A stretch of 64,000 nucleotides of DNA from Roseomonas aeriglobus (lineage in GTDB: Bacteria > Pseudomonadota > Alphaproteobacteria > Sphingomonadales > Sphingomonadaceae). The stretch spans positions 1 to 64,000 of the forward strand of contig JAFHKN010000002.1 of assembly GCA_016937575.1 (NCBI GenBank), given 5' to 3'. This document shows, piece by piece, positions 33,076 through 43,342 of the stretch. Under the pieces are notes generated by a model. It saw nothing but the letters and a program-made list of their open reading frames with translations. It was not told where the DNA came from and did not search any database. Made by a program: the position numbers and the translations under genes. How positions within the stretch are numbered: position 1 is the first letter of the stretch; each line of letters begins with the position of its first letter.

Positions 33076-33097
33076 AAACCAAGATACGAGCCCGCCC

Positions 33098-33679
33098 ATG
33101 AAACGTCTCGCCATCTATTGCGGCTCGGCCACGCCGAGCGATTCCGTCTATGTCGACTCCGCCCGCGCCGTCGGCCGTGCGCTTGCCGAGCGGGGCATCG
33201 GCGTCGTCTATGGCGGCGGCAGGCTCGGGTTGATGGGGGCGGTCGCCGACGCGGCGCTCGACGCCGGGGGCGAAGTGATCGGCGTCATCCCGCAGGCGCT
33301 GGTCGATGCCGAGGTCGCGCATCGGGGCTGCACCGAACTCCACGTCGTCGACACCATGCACCAGCGCAAACAGGCGTTCACCGACCTGAGCGACGGCTTC
33401 GTCACGCTGCCCGGCGGGACGGGCACGATGGACGAACTGTGGGAAGCGATGAGCTGGGCGCAGATCGGCTATCACGCCAAACCGGTCGGACTGCTGAACG
33501 TCGCGGGTTTCTACGATGGCCTCATCACCTTCGTGAAGACGATGGGCGACGTCGGTTTCCTGCGTCCGCAGCATCAGGGGCTGCTGATCGTCGACGACAC
33601 GCTCGGCGGGCTGCTCGAAAAGATGGCGGCCTTCACGCCGGCGACGACGGTCGGCCAGATCGGCGCGAAGGACCTGTGA
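33098..33679 (+). CDS. LOG family protein (TIGR00730; cytokinin riboside 5'-monophosphate phosphoribohydrolase-like)
   Basis: The 193-residue SLOG-fold protein contains IAIYCGS-type start (MKRLAIYCGSATPSDSVYVD), GIGVVYGGGRLGLMGAVADA, and the catalytic PGGTGTMDELWEAMSWAQIG. LOG enzymes hydrolyse the N-glycosidic bond of nucleoside monophosphates, releasing the base. It lies between crtI and crtB, and its stop overlaps the crtB GTG, so it is co-translated with crtB. Its link to carotenoid synthesis is unclear. Confidence 0.93.
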   Translation: MKRLAIYCGSATPSDSVYVDSARAVGRALAERGIGVVYGGGRLGLMGAVADAALDAGGEVIGVIPQALVDAEVAHRGCTELHVVDTMHQRKQAFTDLSDGFVTLPGGTGTMDELWEAMSWAQIGYHAKPVGLLNVAGFYDGLITFVKTMGDVGFLRPQHQGLLIVDDTLGGLLEKMAAFTPATTVGQIGAKDL

Positions 33680-35423: not shown

Positions 35424-37247
35424 ATGCCCCCCGTGACCTCCACTCCGGGCGCCGACCGCCCGCTGGTCGCGACGCTGCGCCGGTTCCTGCCCTATCTCTG
35501 GCCGCATGACGCACCGGCGCTGAAGGTGCGGATCGTCGGCGCGATGCTGCTCGTCGTCGCCTCCAAGCTGGTGCAGGTTTATGGCGCCCCGTTTGCCCTG
35601 CAGGGCGCGGTCGACCGGATGGCCAGCGGGGACCGGAGTCTGGCGACGCTCGTGGTGCTGCTGGTCGTCGGCTATGCGGCGGCACGGCTGGGAACGGTCG
35701 TCTTCGACAATCTGCGCAATACCGTGTTCGAACGCGTCGGACAGGACGCGACGCAACGGCTGGCCGCCGCGGTCTTTCGCCATCTTCACGATCTGTCGCT
35801 GAGCTTCCACCTCGAACGCCGCACGGGCGCCGTCACCAAGGTGGTCGAACGGGGGACGAAGAGCATCGACACGATGCTCTACTTCCTGCTGTTCAACATC
35901 GCGCCGACCGTGCTGGAACTGGGGCTGGTGCTCGGCATCTTCTGGACGCGGTTCGGGGTCGGGCTGGTCGCGGGCACCGTGGTGATGGTGGTGCTCTACA
36001 TCGTCTTCACGCGGATCGTGACCGATTGGCGCGCGGCGCTCCGGCAACGGATGAACGACCTCGACACCGGCGCGGTCGCGCATGCGGTCGATTCGCTCCT
36101 GAATTTCGAGACGGTCAAATATTTCAACGCCGAGGAGCGCGAGGCGAAACGCTATTCGGCCGCGGTCGCGAGCTACGCCGACGCCGCGGTGAAATCGGAG
36201 AATTCGCTGGCGTGGCTGAACATCGGCCAGGCGGTCATCACCAATGCGATGCTGGCCGGCGGCATGGCGCTGGTCGCGGTCGGCTGGTCGCGCGGGCAGT
36301 TCACGCCGGGCGACGTGGTGCTGGTGTCGACGCTCCTGTCGCAGCTGTTCCGCCCGCTCGACCTGCTCGGCATGGTGTACCGCACGGTGCGCCAGGGCGT
36401 GATCGACATGGGCGCGATGTTCGACCTGATCGATACCGAGGCGACCGTGAAGGACGTCGCCGACGCACCGAAGCTGGCGATCGGCCGGGGCGCGGTGCGG
36501 TTCGAGGACGTGCGCTTCGGCTATGGCGACGGGCGCGAGATCCTGAAGGGTCTCGACCTCGATATCCCCGCCGGCGCCACGGTCGCGGTGGTGGGCCCAT
36601 CGGGGGCGGGCAAGTCGACGCTGGCGCGGCTGCTCTATCGGTTCTGGGACGTGACCGGCGGGCGGATCACCATCGACGGGCAGGACATCGCCCGCGTGAC
36701 GCAGACGAGCTTGCGCGCCGCGATCGGCATCGTGCCGCAGGACACGGTGCTGTTCAACGACACGATCGGCTACAACATCGGTTACGGCCGCGAAGGCGCG
36801 AGCGCGGACGATATTGAGCGCGCGGCGCGCGGGGCGGCGATCATGCCGTTCATCGACCGGCTGCCGGACGGGTTCGACACGCGGGTCGGCGAGCGCGGGC
36901 TGAAGCTGTCGGGCGGCGAGAAGCAGCGTGTCGCCATCGCCCGGACGCTGGTGAAGGATCCGCCGATCCTGATCCTCGACGAGGCGACCAGCGCGCTCGA
37001 CAGCCGCACCGAAGCCGAGATCCTCGGCACGCTGGAGGCGATCGAGCAGGGCCGGACGACCATCGTCATCGCGCACCGCCTGTCGACGATCGTCCACGCC
37101 GACCGCATCGTCGTGCTGGACGGCGGGCGGGTCGCCGAACAGGGCACGCATGGCGAGTTGCTGGAGCTGGGCGGGCTGTACGCCGAGATGTGGGCCCGGC
37201 AACAGGCCGAGCGGCGGTCGGCGGAACAGGTCGTTTCCGACGCATAG
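35424..37247 (+). CDS. Atm1/HMT1-type ABC transporter (fused permease-ATPase)
   Basis: The 607-residue half-transporter has an N-terminal six-helix domain (~residues 35-320) with the Atm1-family block NFETVKYFNAEEREAKRY. A nucleotide-binding domain follows with Walker A GPSGAGKSTLARLLYRF, signature LSGGEKQRVAIARTL and Walker B ILILDEATSALD. Related Novosphingobium Atm1 exports glutathione-metal conjugates, so heavy-metal detoxification or sulfur-species export is the likely role. It works as a homodimer in the inner membrane. It is alone in its transcription unit. Confidence 0.92.
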   Translation: MPPVTSTPGADRPLVATLRRFLPYLWPHDAPALKVRIVGAMLLVVASKLVQVYGAPFALQGAVDRMASGDRSLATLVVLLVVGYAAARLGTVVFDNLRNTVFERVGQDATQRLAAAVFRHLHDLSLSFHLERRTGAVTKVVERGTKSIDTMLYFLLFNIAPTVLELGLVLGIFWTRFGVGLVAGTVVMVVLYIVFTRIVTDWRAALRQRMNDLDTGAVAHAVDSLLNFETVKYFNAEEREAKRYSAAVASYADAAVKSENSLAWLNIGQAVITNAMLAGGMALVAVGWSRGQFTPGDVVLVSTLLSQLFRPLDLLGMVYRTVRQGVIDMGAMFDLIDTEATVKDVADAPKLAIGRGAVRFEDVRFGYGDGREILKGLDLDIPAGATVAVVGPSGAGKSTLARLLYRFWDVTGGRITIDGQDIARVTQTSLRAAIGIVPQDTVLFNDTIGYNIGYGREGASADDIERAARGAAIMPFIDRLPDGFDTRVGERGLKLSGGEKQRVAIARTLVKDPPILILDEATSALDSRTEAEILGTLEAIEQGRTTIVIAHRLSTIVHADRIVVLDGGRVAEQGTHGELLELGGLYAEMWARQQAERRSAEQVVSDA

Positions 37248-37403: not shown

Positions 37404-37973
37404 ATGAAGGTGAATGTCAAACCACTGCAAGGACCGTGGACGAGCGGTTACGCTCTCGACAAGCATACGGTTTCCAGCCGATATCTGGGCGACGACGACA
37501 ACGGCCGCCCGCAGTTCGAGACCGACCGCACCGAGGTCGGCGAAGCTGTCTTCAAGTTGAAATATCGCAGCGACTGGTCGCAGATCGATCCCTTGGCCGA
37601 CGCGGCCCTCCAGCACGGCATTCCGAATGCGCGGCAGATCACGGCGGTCGTCGCGATGCCCGCCTCCACCGTCCGGGCGCGCCAACCGGTGACCGAACTG
37701 GCCGCCGCCATAGCACAGCGATTGAACGTGCCGGTGCTCGACGTTCTGAGCAAGGCCGCGACCGCGCAACTCAAGAACCTGTCGACGCGCGATGAAAAGG
37801 ATGCTGTCCTGTCGGACGCATTCCGCGTCGGTGACGTTCCCGGCGGACCGCATCATGTGCTATTGGTCGATGACCTGTTCCATACCGGTGCGTCGATGGT
37901 CGCCGGCTGTCGCGCCCTGCTGACCAGTCCGGCCATCGACAAGGTCAGCATCGCGGCGATGACCTGGAGATAG
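37404..37973 (+). CDS. ComF-like phosphoribosyltransferase, first gene of a PRTase-SLOG pair
   Basis: The 189-residue protein carries a PRPP-binding loop near its C-terminus (HHVLLVDDLFHTGASMVAG: hydrophobic strand, two Asp, TGAS). The N-terminal half has GYALDKHTVSSRYLG and FKLKYRSDWSQI, like the ComF N-terminal region without its zinc ribbon. It likely transfers phosphoribose to, or from, an unknown base. GGGAGG at 37391-37396 decides the ATG. The next gene starts two bases after its stop. GC is lower than in neighbours, and no named pathway surrounds it. Confidence 0.75.
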   Translation: MKVNVKPLQGPWTSGYALDKHTVSSRYLGDDDNGRPQFETDRTEVGEAVFKLKYRSDWSQIDPLADAALQHGIPNARQITAVVAMPASTVRARQPVTELAAAIAQRLNVPVLDVLSKAATAQLKNLSTRDEKDAVLSDAFRVGDVPGGPHHVLLVDDLFHTGASMVAGCRALLTSPAIDKVSIAAMTWR

Positions 37974-37975
37974 AG

Positions 37976-38533
37976 GTGGAAACCGTATTCGTTGCCGGAT
38001 CGATTGCGATCACACGTTTGGCGCCAGAGGTCGAACAGCGGATCGCCAATCTGCCGGGGCGAGGGCTTGCCGTTGTCGTGGGCGATGCGGACGGTGCGGA
38101 CTCCGCAATCCAGGCCGTCCTGCACGCCAGCAACGCGCAGGAGGTGACGGTGTACTGCAGTGGCGATACCCCGCGAAACAATATCGGCAACTGGCCGGTG
38201 CATCCGGTCTATCCGTCTGCGGCACGGGGCACGCGCGCGTTCTTTACGGCGAAGGACGTGGAAATGGCGCAGATCGCCGACTATGGCCTCATGATCTGGG
38301 ACGCGCGCAGTACGGGCACGCTGTCGAACGTGATCGAGCTTCTCGCACGCGGTCGGACAAGCAAGGTGTTCGTCAACAAGCTGAAGGCATTCGTGACGGT
38401 CAAGGACGTCGCATCACTGGATGCGCTCGTTGCAAACATGTCACCGACTGCGCGGAAAACAGCCGAAACCAAGATGCGGCTGAGCCAGCGGATCGATGCG
38501 CTTCGCCACGACCAGCTTGCCATGCCGATGTGA
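37976..38533 (+). CDS. SLOG/Rossmann-like nucleotide-binding protein, second gene of the pair
   Basis: The 185-residue product starts METVFVAGSIAITRLAPEVE and contains VVVGDADGADSAIQAVLHAS, the glycine/acid-rich nucleotide loop of SLOG-superfamily proteins. MIWDARSTGTLSNVIELLAR then resembles the SLOG second loop. A C-terminal helical tail follows residue ~135. SLOG proteins bind or cleave nucleotides. The GTG start follows the upstream stop by two bases with GAGG inside the junction, so expression with the PRTase is coupled. Confidence 0.7.
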   Translation: METVFVAGSIAITRLAPEVEQRIANLPGRGLAVVVGDADGADSAIQAVLHASNAQEVTVYCSGDTPRNNIGNWPVHPVYPSAARGTRAFFTAKDVEMAQIADYGLMIWDARSTGTLSNVIELLARGRTSKVFVNKLKAFVTVKDVASLDALVANMSPTARKTAETKMRLSQRIDALRHDQLAMPM

Positions 38534-38546
38534 CGGCGCCGGCGGC

Positions 38547-39443
38547 TCAGCCGCAGGTCAGGCGGATGACTTTCGCCGGCTTGTCGAAGACGATCGACGA
38601 ACAGCCGCTGAGCGCCGCGCGGCCGAGGATGACCCGGTCGCGCCGGTGGTCGCGCTTGCCCTTGGCGGTCACGACGACCTCGTCCGGGTCGGGCACCGCG
38701 CCCGTCGCGGCGATGCCTTCGGCATTGCCGAAGTCCCCCGTCCGCGCGAGCAGGGCGTTCAGCGTGACCGGACCGACCGCGAAGGGCCGGGCGAGGCGGA
38801 GCGTGCGCACCGGGCGCTTCACGCCGAACGCGATCTCGGCTTCCGCCCGGTCGTCGTCGAGCGTACCGCCATAGCCCTTGGCCAGCGTCAGCGCGGCGCC
38901 TGCGGTGGCGATGGTCTTGTCCTGATGCAGGTTGAACCGGATCTGGAGCGGCTGGCCGTCGATCATCAGCACCGCGTTGCTCGCGCCCCAATTGCCGAAC
39001 AGCCCGCCTTCGGCGTCCATCGGGATGGCCACCATACGCTCGCCGGGCTGCGCATCACGAAGCTGGAAGCGGACGACCGGGTCGGGCAGCCCGCCCGGGC
39101 CGACGACGCCGTCATAGCCGGTCACATAAGGCTTGGCGGTCCAGCCGATCCGGCGCTTCGACGGCGCGTCGCCCAGACCGATCCGCCCGACCGCGCTGCG
39201 CCCGGCGACCAGAACCGGCCCGACACGGTAGCCGATGCCGAACGGCCCTGCCTTCAGCCCGGCGCGTGCTGCGGCGTCTTCCGTCAGGATCGGCATCGCC
39301 GGGGCGCCGGGGTCGATCAATAACCGCACCTCCGCATCGTTCGCCGTGGTGACCAGCGCGGTGTCGGTGATGACGCGTTCCGCCGGGGCGGACGCCGCGA
39401 TCGTCAGCGGCAGGGCGGTTGCGAACAGCAGAGTCATGTTCAT
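38547..39443 (-). CDS. Degenerate retropepsin-like exported protein, copy 1
   Basis: The 298-residue protein has a short signal peptide (MNMTLLFATALPLTIAASAP) and then a beta-rich fold reminiscent of retroviral-type aspartyl proteases. The position of the catalytic D-T/S-G is DPGA (LLIDPGAPAMPILTEDAAAR), so activity is doubtful. The C-terminus has EVVVTAKGKRD and a final GCSSIVFDKPAKVIRLTCG with two Cys, shared with the next two genes. It is last of three tandem paralogues; function unknown. Confidence 0.65.
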   Translation of the reverse strand: MNMTLLFATALPLTIAASAPAERVITDTALVTTANDAEVRLLIDPGAPAMPILTEDAAARAGLKAGPFGIGYRVGPVLVAGRSAVGRIGLGDAPSKRRIGWTAKPYVTGYDGVVGPGGLPDPVVRFQLRDAQPGERMVAIPMDAEGGLFGNWGASNAVLMIDGQPLQIRFNLHQDKTIATAGAALTLAKGYGGTLDDDRAEAEIAFGVKRPVRTLRLARPFAVGPVTLNALLARTGDFGNAEGIAATGAVPDPDEVVVTAKGKRDHRRDRVILGRAALSGCSSIVFDKPAKVIRLTCG

Positions 39444-39466
39444 CGGCGTACCTCGGTTGCGGGAGT

Positions 39467-40399
39467 TCAGGCGCAGCGCAGGCGAATCTGATGCGCCGGC
39501 TTGTCGAAGACGATACTGCTGCAGCGACCAAGCAGATCGGCACCGATCGACAGCGTATCGCGACGAACGTCGCGCTTCTTACCCTTTGCTGTCACGACGA
39601 CCTCGTCGGGGTCGACGCGCGACGGCGGTGCCCCCGCCTCACGGATCGTCATGCCGTTGCCGTCATCGGAAACGCGCGCGCCCAGCGTACCGATCGCCAG
39701 GGACCCGAGCATCAGCGGGCGCGCAAGCGTCAGCGTGCGGACGGGGCGGGCGACGCCGAACGCGATGTCGGTCGATGCCGGATCGCCGGACAGAATACCG
39801 TCATAGGCCTTGGCCAGACGGGCGGCGGCGCCGGCGGTCGCCAGCGTGCGCGGGGCGTTGGGGGCAAAGCGGATATTCAGCGGTTGGCCGTCCAGATCGA
39901 TCTCACCGGTCGCATAGCTCCAGCCGATGCCGAATATGGTCATCGGAAAACCCGGCTGGTCGTATCGGAGCGTGACCGTCCGGTCGTTGGCGTTCGGCGC
40001 GCGCAGGGCGACCGTTACGACCGTGTCGGGCAGTGCGGCGGGCCCGATCGTCCCGTCGGCGACCGCGCTGAACGGGCGCGATGCCCAGGCGACGCGGGTC
40101 TTTACCTCGCCCTGTCCGAAGTCGGCCCTGGCGACTGCCGTCGAACTTATGACCGTCACGGGACCGACGCCATAGCCGAAGCCGATCCCCAGGCGGCGCC
40201 CGATCCGCAGATGCGCGCGTTCGGCGGCCTCCGGCGTCACCAGTGCAATGCTGGGGGCGGCGGGATCCACGCGCAACCGCATCGCCACCCCATTGATCCG
40301 CAGCGAGACGATGTGGTCGCCGTCAACGACTCGCTCGACCGGCGGCGCAGCCCCGATCAGGACAGGAACGAGGAGCGTTGCGATGGCGTAACGGACCAT
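39467..40399 (-). CDS. Degenerate retropepsin-like exported protein, copy 2
   Basis: The 310-residue paralogue has a signal peptide (MVRYAIATLLVPVLIGAAPP) and RVDPAAPSIALVTPEAAERA at the position of the protease active site: DPAA in place of D-T/S-G. The end is EVVVTAKGKKRDVRR ... CSSIVFDKPAHQIRLRCA, nearly matching copy 1. A 31-bp direct repeat lies 16 bases upstream of its ATG. The gap to copy 1 is short, so the two are probably co-transcribed. Confidence 0.65.
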   Translation of the reverse strand: MVRYAIATLLVPVLIGAAPPVERVVDGDHIVSLRINGVAMRLRVDPAAPSIALVTPEAAERAHLRIGRRLGIGFGYGVGPVTVISSTAVARADFGQGEVKTRVAWASRPFSAVADGTIGPAALPDTVVTVALRAPNANDRTVTLRYDQPGFPMTIFGIGWSYATGEIDLDGQPLNIRFAPNAPRTLATAGAAARLAKAYDGILSGDPASTDIAFGVARPVRTLTLARPLMLGSLAIGTLGARVSDDGNGMTIREAGAPPSRVDPDEVVVTAKGKKRDVRRDTLSIGADLLGRCSSIVFDKPAHQIRLRCA

Positions 40400-40414
40400 G
40401 CCACGCGCGTTGCA

Positions 40415-40445
40415 GCAGGATCGTGGCGCGATTGCGGCCGGTTGC
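40415..40445. repeat. 31-bp direct repeat, copy 1
   Basis: This sequence (begins GCAGGATCGTGGCGCGATTG) recurs exactly at 41510-41540, 1095 bases away. The two copies flank the third retropepsin-like gene, consistent with duplication of a gene-plus-leader unit or with a shared regulatory site. No terminal inverted repeats were seen. Confidence 0.85.
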
Positions 40446-40478
40446 TCCCGTCCGCTTCGGACTTTCGAGGATCAGCGG

Positions 40479-41405
40479 CTATTCGGCGCAGGTCAGGCGA
40501 ATTTCGCGGGCGCGCAGATCGACGACGATCGACGAGCAGCGCTTGAGTGCGTCGGTCCCGACCATCAGCCGCTCGAACGTATCGTCATGCTCGGCGCGCG
40601 CGACCACGTTGACCTCGTTCGGGTCGGCGGGCGCGTCAACCTCCTCGACCCGCTTGATCTGCCGGGCCGACCCCCAATCGGTAACGCGGACCTGCATCTC
40701 GTTGATCGTCACGGGTCCGATCGCCATCGGTGTGGCAAGGACCATGCGGCGAAGCAGCCGTTCACGACCGGACGCCGCTTCGGTCCGGACCGCTTCCCCG
40801 GCGTAGCGGCCCCCATAGGCCCCCGATATGCGCAACGCCGTGCGCGCGGTGACGGTGTTGCCCGGCTGCAGGAGGGTGAAGCCGACGCTGACATCACGGT
40901 CGCCGATTCGCACGGCGGTGGCGGCGGCACCGTTCCAGTCGGGCGACGATTCCCCACCGGGGTTGAGCGGCATCGCCACCGTCCGCTCGCCGCGCACCGA
41001 CGACCGCAGCACGAACCGCGCCACATCGACGCCGATCAGGCCGGGCGCGATCACGCAGTCCGCGTCCTCGACATAGTGGTTGCCCAGCCAGTACACGGGC
41101 AACTGCTGCGTGCGTCCGGCGAGACGAAGCGTCACCGTGCCGTACGATCCATAGGCATCAGCCGGGTCGGTCAGGATCACAGTGCGGCCCTTGGCGATGA
41201 TGCCGGCACGCACCGCGAAGTCCGGATTGCAGATCATGCGGGGGAGCCCCGACGGATCGACGCGGATGCGTCCCTCGACGCCGTTCACCCGCATGGCGAG
41301 CGTGCCGTCTGCGGGTATCGTCAGGGTGGTGCGATCATCGGCCGCGCCGGGCAACGTCGCCAGTACGGCGAGCAGTGGAACGATCCGCGATCCGAACTTC
41401 GTCAT
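40479..41405 (-). CDS. Degenerate retropepsin-like exported protein, copy 3
   Basis: The 308-residue paralogue is the most diverged. The signal peptide is MTKFGSRIVPLLAVLATLPG. The protease-site equivalent is RVDPSGLPRMICNPDFAVRA, so DPSG replaces D-T/S-G. It keeps the terminal CSSIVVDLRAREIRLTC and a related EVNVVARAEHD before it. AAGGAACC just upstream supports the ATG at 41405. It is first in the tandem set, divergent from recQ. Confidence 0.62.
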   Translation of the reverse strand: MTKFGSRIVPLLAVLATLPGAADDRTTLTIPADGTLAMRVNGVEGRIRVDPSGLPRMICNPDFAVRAGIIAKGRTVILTDPADAYGSYGTVTLRLAGRTQQLPVYWLGNHYVEDADCVIAPGLIGVDVARFVLRSSVRGERTVAMPLNPGGESSPDWNGAAATAVRIGDRDVSVGFTLLQPGNTVTARTALRISGAYGGRYAGEAVRTEAASGRERLLRRMVLATPMAIGPVTINEMQVRVTDWGSARQIKRVEEVDAPADPNEVNVVARAEHDDTFERLMVGTDALKRCSSIVVDLRAREIRLTCAE

Positions 41406-41509
41406 AGCTTGGTTCCTTACGATCCGTGTCGGCATTGTCCCGCCCCGGTGATCCCGACGTGCCGCGGCGAGGGGGGCAGCACGGCAAGGTCCGCGAATGC
41501 CACGCTGCC

Positions 41510-41540: not shown

Positions 41541-41572
41541 CGCGCCGGTCGACGGTCCCTAAGTGCCCCTCG

Positions 41573-43342
41573 GTGACTGCCGCGCTCGACACACTCCATC
41601 GTATCTTCGGCTTCAACGACTTCCGCGGGGTGCAGGGGCGCGTCGTCGATCGCGTGCTGGCGGGCCAGTCGACCTTGGCGGTCATGCCGACCGGCGCGGG
41701 CAAGTCGCTGACATATCAGCTGCCGGCCGTCATGCTGGAGGGGACGTGCGTCGTCGTGTCACCGCTGATCGCGTTGATGCACGACCAGCTGCGCGCGGCG
41801 GAAGCCGTGGGCATCCGCGCGGCGACGCTGACATCCGTCGACCAGAACCGGGCGGAGACGCGCGGGCGGTTCCTGGATGGCGAGCTCGACCTGCTCTACA
41901 TCGCCCCCGAACGAGCCTCGACCGGCGATTTCCGCGAACTGCTGGAGCGCGGGCGGGTGGCGCTGTTCGCGATCGACGAGGCGCATTGCGTCAGCGAATG
42001 GGGACACGACTTCCGCCCCGACTATCGGCTGCTGCGGCCGCTTCTCGACTGCCATCCGGATGTGCCGCGTCTTGCGCTCACCGCGACCGCCGACGCGCAT
42101 ACGCGCGCCGACATCCTCGACCAGCTCGGCATCCCGCAGGAGGGGCTGATCGTTGCCGGTTTCGACCGGCCGAACATCCGCTATGCCATTTCGCCGCGCG
42201 ACAACACGACACGGCAGATCGCCGACCTGATCGCCGAGACGCCGGGGCCGGGCATCGTCTATGCCCAGACCCGCGCTGGGACCGAGAAGCTCGCCGAGGC
42301 GCTGAGCAAGACCGGGCGGCCGACCCGCGCCTATCACGCCGGACTCGACCCCGAGGTGCGCGCGCGCAACCAGGCCGATTTCGTCGCGTCCGAGGACATG
42401 GTGATCTGCGCAACGGTCGCGTTCGGTATGGGGATCGACAAGCCCGACGTGCGCTTCGTGGCGCATGCGGGCCTGCCGAAATCGATCGAGGCCTATTATC
42501 AGGAAACCGGCCGTGCCGGCCGCGACGGCGACCCGTCGGTCGCGCATCTGTTCTGGGGGGCGGAGGATTTCGCCAAGGCGCGGCAGCGGGTGGGCGAGGT
42601 CGAGCCGCAGCGCCAGGCGGGCGAGCGCCAGCGGCTGACGGCGCTTGCAGGACTCGTCGAGACGACCGGGTGCCGGCGCGCGGTGCTGCTCCGCCACTTC
42701 GGCGAACAGCCGGGCGATGCGTGCGGCAACTGCGACAATTGCCTGAACCCGCCGGTCGGCACCGAGGCGACCGAGATCGCGCGCAAGTTCCTCTCCGCGG
42801 TGTTCCGTACGGGGCAGATGTTCGGCGTCGGCTATGTCGAGGACATATTGCTTGGGCGCTCGAGCGAGCGGAGCCTGATGAACGGGCACGAAAATTTGAG
42901 CGTGTTCGGGATTGTCGCGGGGGAAGAGGCGGCGCTCATCCGTCCGGTCGCGCGCGCGCTGCAGGCCCGTGACGCGCTGCGCGCCAATCCGCATGGCGGC
43001 CTGGAGTTCGGTCCCGCGGCGCGCGCGATCCTGAAGGGCGAGGTCGACGTGACGCTCGTCCTGCCGCCCAAGCGCGAGCGGCGGCGCAAGGGCAAGGGCG
43101 GCGCGGCCGAGGCCAATCCGGTCGGCGATCCGCTGTTCGAGGCCCTGCGCGAACGCCGCCGCGCGCTCGCCAAGGAAGGCGGGGTGCCGCCCTATGTCAT
43201 CTTCCATGATTCGGTGCTGCGCGAGATGGCGAGCGTGCGGCCGGGGACGCGCGATGCATTGTCGCGAATCTCGGGCGTTGGCGCGCGCAAGCTCGATGCG
43301 TATGGAGAAGCGTTCCTGTCGACTATCCGAGAGTTCGAATGA
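41573..43342 (+). CDS. recQ: ATP-dependent DNA helicase RecQ
   Basis: RecQ unwinds DNA 3' to 5' in recombination and fork repair. The 589-residue protein shows motif 0/I (GFNDFRGVQGRVVDRVLAGQ, PTGAGKSLTYQ), DEAH box (AIDEAHCVSEWGHDF), motif VI (QETGRAGRDGDPS) and the zinc-binding cysteines in CGNCDNC. The RQC region follows, then a C-terminal HRDC domain (REMASVRPGTRDALSRISGV). A GTG at 41573 starts the conserved part. The stop overlaps the next gene by ATGA. Confidence 0.95.
   Translation: MTAALDTLHRIFGFNDFRGVQGRVVDRVLAGQSTLAVMPTGAGKSLTYQLPAVMLEGTCVVVSPLIALMHDQLRAAEAVGIRAATLTSVDQNRAETRGRFLDGELDLLYIAPERASTGDFRELLERGRVALFAIDEAHCVSEWGHDFRPDYRLLRPLLDCHPDVPRLALTATADAHTRADILDQLGIPQEGLIVAGFDRPNIRYAISPRDNTTRQIADLIAETPGPGIVYAQTRAGTEKLAEALSKTGRPTRAYHAGLDPEVRARNQADFVASEDMVICATVAFGMGIDKPDVRFVAHAGLPKSIEAYYQETGRAGRDGDPSVAHLFWGAEDFAKARQRVGEVEPQRQAGERQRLTALAGLVETTGCRRAVLLRHFGEQPGDACGNCDNCLNPPVGTEATEIARKFLSAVFRTGQMFGVGYVEDILLGRSSERSLMNGHENLSVFGIVAGEEAALIRPVARALQARDALRANPHGGLEFGPAARAILKGEVDVTLVLPPKRERRRKGKGGAAEANPVGDPLFEALRERRRALAKEGGVPPYVIFHDSVLREMASVRPGTRDALSRISGVGARKLDAYGEAFLSTIREFE

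Follow-up and report, generated by a model that had tools for sequence, protein, structure and literature searches.

DprA homologs have been reported as antitoxins in the shosTA, syrTA, and rqlHI systems, and a pair consisting of a DprA homolog and a phosphoribosyltransferase (PRTase) has been reported to protect from T7 and lambda (PMC9122126). In ShosTA, the PRTase ShosT is the toxin and the DprA-like ShosA is the antitoxin; a recent report describes disturbance of purine metabolism by ShosT and DNA binding by ShosA (PMC12593503, citing Pu et al. 2025). In PsyrTA/RqlHI, a RecQ-like helicase with a PRTase domain is combined with a DprA-like partner; RqlH variants mutated at the site for phosphoribosyl pyrophosphate (PRPP) are described as having lost most of their toxicity, and RqlI, which carries a C-terminal helix-turn-helix (HTH) domain, as the protein that restrains RqlH (PMC4670107). 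Here we analyze a 64,000-nucleotide stretch of Roseomonas aeriglobus DNA (contig JAFHKN010000002.1, positions 1 to 64,000; hereafter, the window) where a gene for a 189-residue ComF-like PRTase (37404..37973, forward strand, from an ATG at 37404 to a stop at 37973) is separated by 2 nt from a gene on the same strand that encodes a 185-residue DprA/ShosA-like SLOG protein (37976..38533, from a GTG at 37976 to a stop at 38533). In our assessment, this pair is probably a two-gene toxin-antitoxin or abortive-defense module, in which a PRPP-using PRTase effector (the candidate toxin) would be restrained by a DprA-like SLOG protein (the candidate antitoxin or sensor).

Kinship of the two proteins

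Searches with models of known families (Pfam, NCBIfam, PADLOC, and PHROGs) yielded no more than partial or weak matches for the PRTase and no meaningful one for the SLOG protein. For the PRTase, the Pfam match to PF00156 falls below the cut-off, the best NCBIfam match, TIGR00201 (comF), far below it, and the PADLOC models of PsyrT and ShosT are matched at 8.4e-13 and 0.011, respectively, the former over model positions 536-680 of 689 only. The relationship to the C-terminal domain of PsyrT is also seen with hhalign (3.9e-9), and direct alignments favor ComF (z 6.2 to 11.7) and PsyrT (z 7.3 and 8.1). The profile of the PRTase family weakly finds the ShosT of locus L142, and three PRTase relatives match the PADLOC ShosT model at 4.2e-6 to 4.5e-10. 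A PDB search with the single PRTase sequence was uninformative, and the profile finds ordinary PRTases there, chiefly via the PRPP loop. The AlphaFold model of the PRTase is confident (predicted local distance difference test, pLDDT, 92.7; predicted template modeling score, pTM, 0.87), and its top fold match by Z is Helicobacter pylori ComF (7p0h; Z 14.2, root-mean-square deviation (rmsd) 3.4, 162 aligned residues), followed by ordinary PRTases at Z 11.1 and below, with ShosT among these. In a tree of 76 PRTases, the pair members form one clade (support 0.96, 44 rows) that is separate from ComF and PsyrT and is joined by ShosT with support 0.77; when the rows of this tree were read by sequence, L139 and L140 proved to be pair members, L096 a short PsyrT, and L122 a ComF-like open reading frame.

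The residues of the PRPP site are strictly conserved. In a 38-row alignment, the invariant positions are W12, K53, Y54, R91, Q94-V96, K124, D156, D157, G162, and L172, and these include, in all 38 rows, D156, D157, and G162 of the PRPP loop DDLFHTGAS (residues 156-164, 37869..37895), as well as R91, Q94, P95, and V96 of a putative pyrophosphate loop (residues 84-96, AMPASTVRARQPV, 37653..37691), which was assigned by analogy with ComFC as described in PMC9005727. Residue 84 in this putative loop (37653-37655) is Ala in the window protein and Pro in 35 of the 38 rows. An earlier note on this DNA, made from the sequence alone, had described a ComF-like PRTase with an intact PRPP loop, and this description holds; because the PRPP-site residues are invariant, the loss of catalytic residues in relatives that the note considered as a counter-indication is not seen for the PRTase. 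The N-terminal four-cysteine zinc finger of ComFC, in contrast, is not present in either the window protein or the aligned rows: the first 60 residues contain no cysteine in the former and at most two across the 38 rows.

The SLOG protein is recognized at E ≤ 1 by no Pfam or PADLOC model, the ShosA model included; its single NCBIfam and PHROGs matches (E 0.16 and 0.24) are without meaning, and PDB searches with the single sequence and with the profile were uninformative, the antibody light-chain rows among the results being chance matches. Nevertheless, the SLOG fold anticipated in the earlier note is borne out by a confident AlphaFold model (pLDDT 95.7, pTM 0.91), and the SLOG/Rossmann core of DprA is present. 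DprA and ShosA are the top fold matches by Foldseek E-value. By Z, they (ShosA, 8zva, 13.0, rmsd 3.3, 144 aligned residues) are nearly tied with a molybdenum cofactor carrier (14.8), YpsA (13.5), and LOG (5zbk, 12.6), so that the fold alone does not settle the kinship; this second comparison, with VIA-align, took in Foldseek's own candidates only, and families outside that set could be missed. In direct alignments, the window SLOG protein matches the ShosA of L142 (z 7.06, 0 of 500 shuffles), shows no sequence similarity to the LOG protein of the same window (z 1.1), and has no clear match among three PsyrA proteins (z 0.5 to 2.2); a profile-profile comparison with PsyrA likewise gave no significant match.

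Across 50 aligned SLOG rows, G36, A38, G40, D42, Q46, R67, N69, W73, D94, W108, and D109 are invariant. The two loops on which the earlier note had relied are both present, namely, the glycine loop GDADGADSA (residues 36-44, 38081..38107) and STGTLSN (residues 112-118, 38309..38329). When the latter is placed in register with PGGxGTxxE/GTxxE, which we take to be the LOG motif that carries the catalytic Glu of LOG phosphoribohydrolases, Asn118 occupies the place of this Glu in 49 of the 50 rows, the remaining row having a gap. This substitution, together with the lack of a sequence signal between LOG and a SLOG protein that aligns with ShosA instead, disfavors the metabolic or signaling couple envisaged in the note, in which the SLOG protein would free a base and the PRTase would attach another, to swap bases or make a signal nucleotide. 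Moreover, the sporadic, mobile distribution of the pair and the existence of SLOG genes without the PRTase suit salvage poorly, and no standard pathway genes lie near the pair in the window, as the note itself had correctly observed. We regard such a couple as very unlikely.

Set against the described systems, the pair resembles each of them in part. The SLOG part of ShosA is similar to the window SLOG protein in both sequence and fold, but ShosA comprises 295 residues, whereas the 185-residue SLOG protein falls well short of a DprA-like protein of about 300 residues, and the gene order, ShosA-ShosT in L142 (identified as ShosTA by PADLOC and the only ShosTA locus read for gene order), is PRTase-SLOG in the pair. 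With PsyrTA/RqlHI, the pair shares the two-gene layout with the toxin first, the relationship of the PRTase to the PsyrT C-terminal domain, and HTH domains on some partners, as in RqlI; however, in those systems, the helicase is fused to the PRTase, whereas the pair PRTase lacks the helicase part, its PRPP loop reads DDLFHTG rather than DDxVxSRWT, and the SLOG protein is far from a full-length DprA-like partner such as PsyrA (426-438 residues). ComF/ComFC has the PRPP-binding PRTase domain in common with the pair, but the short PRTase without zinc-finger cysteines, the separate clade, and the sporadic, mobile occurrence set the pair apart. Similarly, the SLOG protein shares the core of DprA but lacks its further regions. 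The pair is thus filed outside ShosTA, PsyrTA/RqlHI, and ComF because of the SLOG length, the helicase, and the zinc finger, respectively, and we judge it to be a variant of the same general kind of PRTase plus DprA/SLOG module. We further judge it to be undescribed in the open-access literature searched, from which most subscription papers and preprints are missing.

Co-occurrence and uneven decay of the two genes

The coupling of the PRTase and the SLOG gene, which the earlier note had proposed, is strongly supported and exceeds chance. The search for SLOG homologs recovered 1284 at E ≤ 1e-3, and, of the 66 SLOG loci in other genomes, 48 are immediately preceded by a PRTase matched over its full length (a match spanning more than 140 query residues; 49 rows with the window included). 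Among the 18 remaining loci, L048 lies at a contig edge, L028 is split into two pieces, L054 also shows a frameshift in SLOG, and L062-L064 make up a diverged lone-SLOG group. The intergenic distance is between -10 and +10 nt in 36 of the 42 intact pairs (window included, with the start codons set by us). In 299 Pseudomonadota genomes, SLOG is found in 6, including the window's own, and the pair-type PRTase (E ≤ 1e-49; weakest 2.6e-50, next match 8.1e-18) in the same 6, always adjacent; among the weaker matches to the PRTase profile (8.1e-18 or worse), the 24 that were aligned are ComF-like by motif.

The plasmid records point in the same direction. SLOG was detected in 98 records and the PRTase in 57. 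Wherever at least 80% of the PRTase is present (51 records), SLOG accompanies it over 84% or more of its own length, as checked by reading against the 60 best of the 98 SLOG rows and an even sample of 45; the SLOG copy of pLI100 (Listeria innocua), one of these 51 records, was detected by profile. Of the other six PRTase records, AP018832, AP018835, and CP074549 carry a near-full SLOG gene and LR606149 a SLOG fragment; in CP126331, an IS1 truncates the PRTase and the annotation shows no SLOG alongside, and the sixth, CP077786, carries 67% of the PRTase. In the genomes searched, the PRTase depends on SLOG. Small, adjacent, co-oriented genes, one of which never occurs near-full without the other (51 of 51 plasmid records, 6 of 6 genomes), are generic features of toxin-antitoxin systems.

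Decay of the pair is uneven. Among 25 Pseudomonas loci, both genes are present in 15, an open SLOG gene accompanies a deleted or truncated PRTase in 9, and one, L054, combines the frameshifted SLOG gene with the absence of the PRTase. The PRTase-broken loci are scattered over the SLOG tree, with three of them sharing a RloA/RloB insertion. These loci were collected via SLOG, and the direction of decay is fairly checked by the plasmid list that starts from the PRTase. Outside Pseudomonas, G321 has transposase genes within the PRTase, an Enterobacter plasmid has an IS3 beside a shortened PRTase, and A. ampelinum S4 has a PRTase with a stop and a frame change adjoining an intact antidote gene. 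In the three Pseudomonas loci with the insertion (L019, L033, and L035), a near-identical pair of an AAA_21 ATPase and RloB stands in place of most of the PRTase, that is, one defense-like pair is swapped for another. RloB is 99.1-99.5% identical among these loci, compared with 94.3-95.3% for SLOG; given the near identity of the insert, which perhaps reflects one event, the time after the loss of the PRTase cannot be isolated.

In several lineages, SLOG is linked to HTH domains of the kind found in antidotes. SLOG is fused to HTH_37 in P0023, P0096, and L012 and to PF21716/TIGR02684, 'addiction module antidote protein', in L084; in A. vitis T60/94, HTH_37 is encoded by a gene of its own downstream. 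The window SLOG protein has no HTH domain. An extension of a different sort occurs in a Hyphomicrobiales metagenome-assembled genome (L025, 6001-7299), where the SLOG protein reaches 432 residues through a long C-terminal region with a sub-threshold DUF5677 match only. On three Rhizobiales plasmids (L082, L083, and L087), a diverged SLOG gene without an annotated PRTase always lies after a DUF2493 gene and before a DUF736 gene, with other toxin-antitoxin genes nearby in two of the three.

Proposed mechanism and contrary evidence

By analogy with ShosT and with RqlH, whose PRTase domain is toxic, the free PRTase would consume PRPP or make or break nucleotides and thereby disturb the nucleotide pool. 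The SLOG protein would restrain it through binding to the PRTase and/or to DNA or a nucleotide, and the PRTase would be released once this binding is disturbed by phage or by other foreign DNA. The HTH domains fused to SLOG in some lineages presumably serve autoregulation, and, on plasmids and prophages, the module would stabilize the element or block its rivals. A more sweeping scenario, which we consider rather doubtful, casts the pair as the minimal core of the whole class: a ComF-DprA couple for DNA uptake turned into an addiction or defense switch, where a half-size SLOG protein senses a nucleotide or foreign single-stranded DNA (ssDNA) and gates a PRPP-burning PRTase, with ShosTA and PsyrTA/RqlHI being elaborations (longer DprA, helicase) and the lone plasmid SLOG proteins acting in anti-addiction or anti-defense.

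Several observations weigh against the toxin-antitoxin interpretation. By both fold Z and direct alignment, the PRTase is closest to ComF. ShosT is no specific fold match because its Z values (8zvd, 10.3, rmsd 3.4, 156 aligned; 8zvc, with PRPP-Mg, 10.0, rmsd 3.6, 160 aligned) are tied with those of ordinary PRTases; it is absent from the 50 Foldseek rows listed for the PRTase, and direct alignment of the window PRTase with the L142 ShosT scores no better than chance (z -0.16). The SLOG gene is also more widespread than its partner: within the window's family, 9 of 249 genomes carry it, compared with 3 for the PRTase (E ≤ 1e-25), which is a fragment in one of them. On plasmids, SLOG is at least 80% complete in 87 records, which, set against the 51 with a near-full PRTase, leaves about 36 that lack such a partner, some of them carrying the diverged lone copies of Rhizobiales. 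The opposite course of decay could not show among the Pseudomonas loci because these were found through SLOG. The median SLOG dN/dS (ratio of nonsynonymous to synonymous substitution rates) is 0.037 where the PRTase is broken (28 locus pairs) and 0.043 where it is intact (56 locus pairs), compared with a median of 0.054 for the PRTase (90 locus pairs); we do not use these values as support but count them against a pure antidote role, given that equally low dN/dS beside a broken PRTase and the existence of lone SLOG genes suggest that SLOG may also act independently of the PRTase. Finally, neither protein was matched in annotated phage records.

The proximity to ComF keeps in play, at a low probability, a non-toxic module of plasmids and phages for handling ssDNA, in which the PRTase and the SLOG protein would protect or process incoming ssDNA during conjugation, infection, or recombination. 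Such a role would fit a PRTase nearest to ComF next to a SLOG protein near DprA, and many copies of the pair reside on conjugative plasmids; H. pylori ComFC is reported to bind both PRPP and ssDNA, and an interaction with DprA is reported for ComFC from other species (PMC9005727). For PRTases of mobile elements, the production or sensing of a nucleotide upon entry of DNA has been proposed (PMC5512222). It leaves unexplained, however, the loss of the PRTase with retention of SLOG and the antidote-type HTH fusions, and it is at odds with the missing zinc-finger cysteines and with the 12 pair-bearing plasmid stretches, in which no competence or transfer gene is constant near the pair. We consider it unlikely.

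Should the toxin-antitoxin or abortive-defense reading prove true, the pair would add an unnamed mobile member to the few PRTase-based defense toxins, tie competence-type proteins to defense, and offer, with fewer than 400 residues in total, a simple test bed for killing by a PRTase and its restraint by a DprA-like protein. In most plasmid records seen, it is annotated as 'ComF family protein' and 'hypothetical protein'.

Mobility, genomic site, and neighboring genes

The pair ranges from Pseudomonadota to the Listeria innocua plasmid and is carried by chromosomes as well as by plasmids and prophage-like contigs. By conjugative typing, 55 of the 98 SLOG plasmid records are conjugative, and a Klebsiella-type pair occurs in 5 of 5426 Escherichia coli genomes, always plasmid-borne, a count that misses other subtypes because the Klebsiella copy served as a near-identity query. 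In IMG/VR, a full PRTase is present at 15 of 21 SLOG loci; among these viral pairs, integrases adjoin L188, L192, and L196, and a terminase adjoins L194. The advice of the earlier note to look for links to defense was sound: named defense genes lie near the pair in 4 of the 12 plasmid stretches (restriction genes in two, CBASS-type genes in one, and a run of nucleotidyltransferase, HNH, and SIR2 genes in one) and near none in the other 8.

In the window, the pair is flanked upstream by an ABC-transporter gene (35424..37247, forward strand) and downstream by three opposite-strand genes followed by recQ (41546..43342, forward strand). The comparison with genus genomes and other loci identifies these two genes, both of them core, as the borders of a variable site, outside the module itself. 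The pair lies between them in the window, L001, L003, L004, and L005, whereas in all five pair-free genus genomes fetched, the gap, of about 0.4 to 4.9 kb, is without it; the ABC-transporter gene is core (24 of 26 genus genomes). The recurrent recQ after the pair in these five loci, whose window copy aligns with the helicase portion of the PsyrT model (9.4e-91), raises the prospect of a split PsyrTA/RqlHI, with the adjacent gene supplying the helicase that the PRTase lacks. Yet this recQ is an ordinary one, with RQC and HRDC domains, and it stands behind the same ABC-transporter gene in the five pair-free genomes as well. On these grounds, we reject the split system as most improbable; furthermore, the annotation shows no RecQ in any of the 12 plasmid stretches, and at L002, L006, and L046, where the pair is present, the available DNA contains no recQ.

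A scan for promoters and terminators detected no signals. The LOG-type protein of the window (PF03641, 1.7e-42) is encoded separately, at 33095-33679 on the forward strand, about 3.7 kb upstream of the pair. The three opposite-strand genes between SLOG and recQ (38547-41435, reverse strand) are tandem and similar-looking, encoding proteins of 298-318 residues; the one that was searched has no Pfam match, and none of the three is present in the relatives compared. Judged by eye only, they appear to be aspartyl-protease-like.
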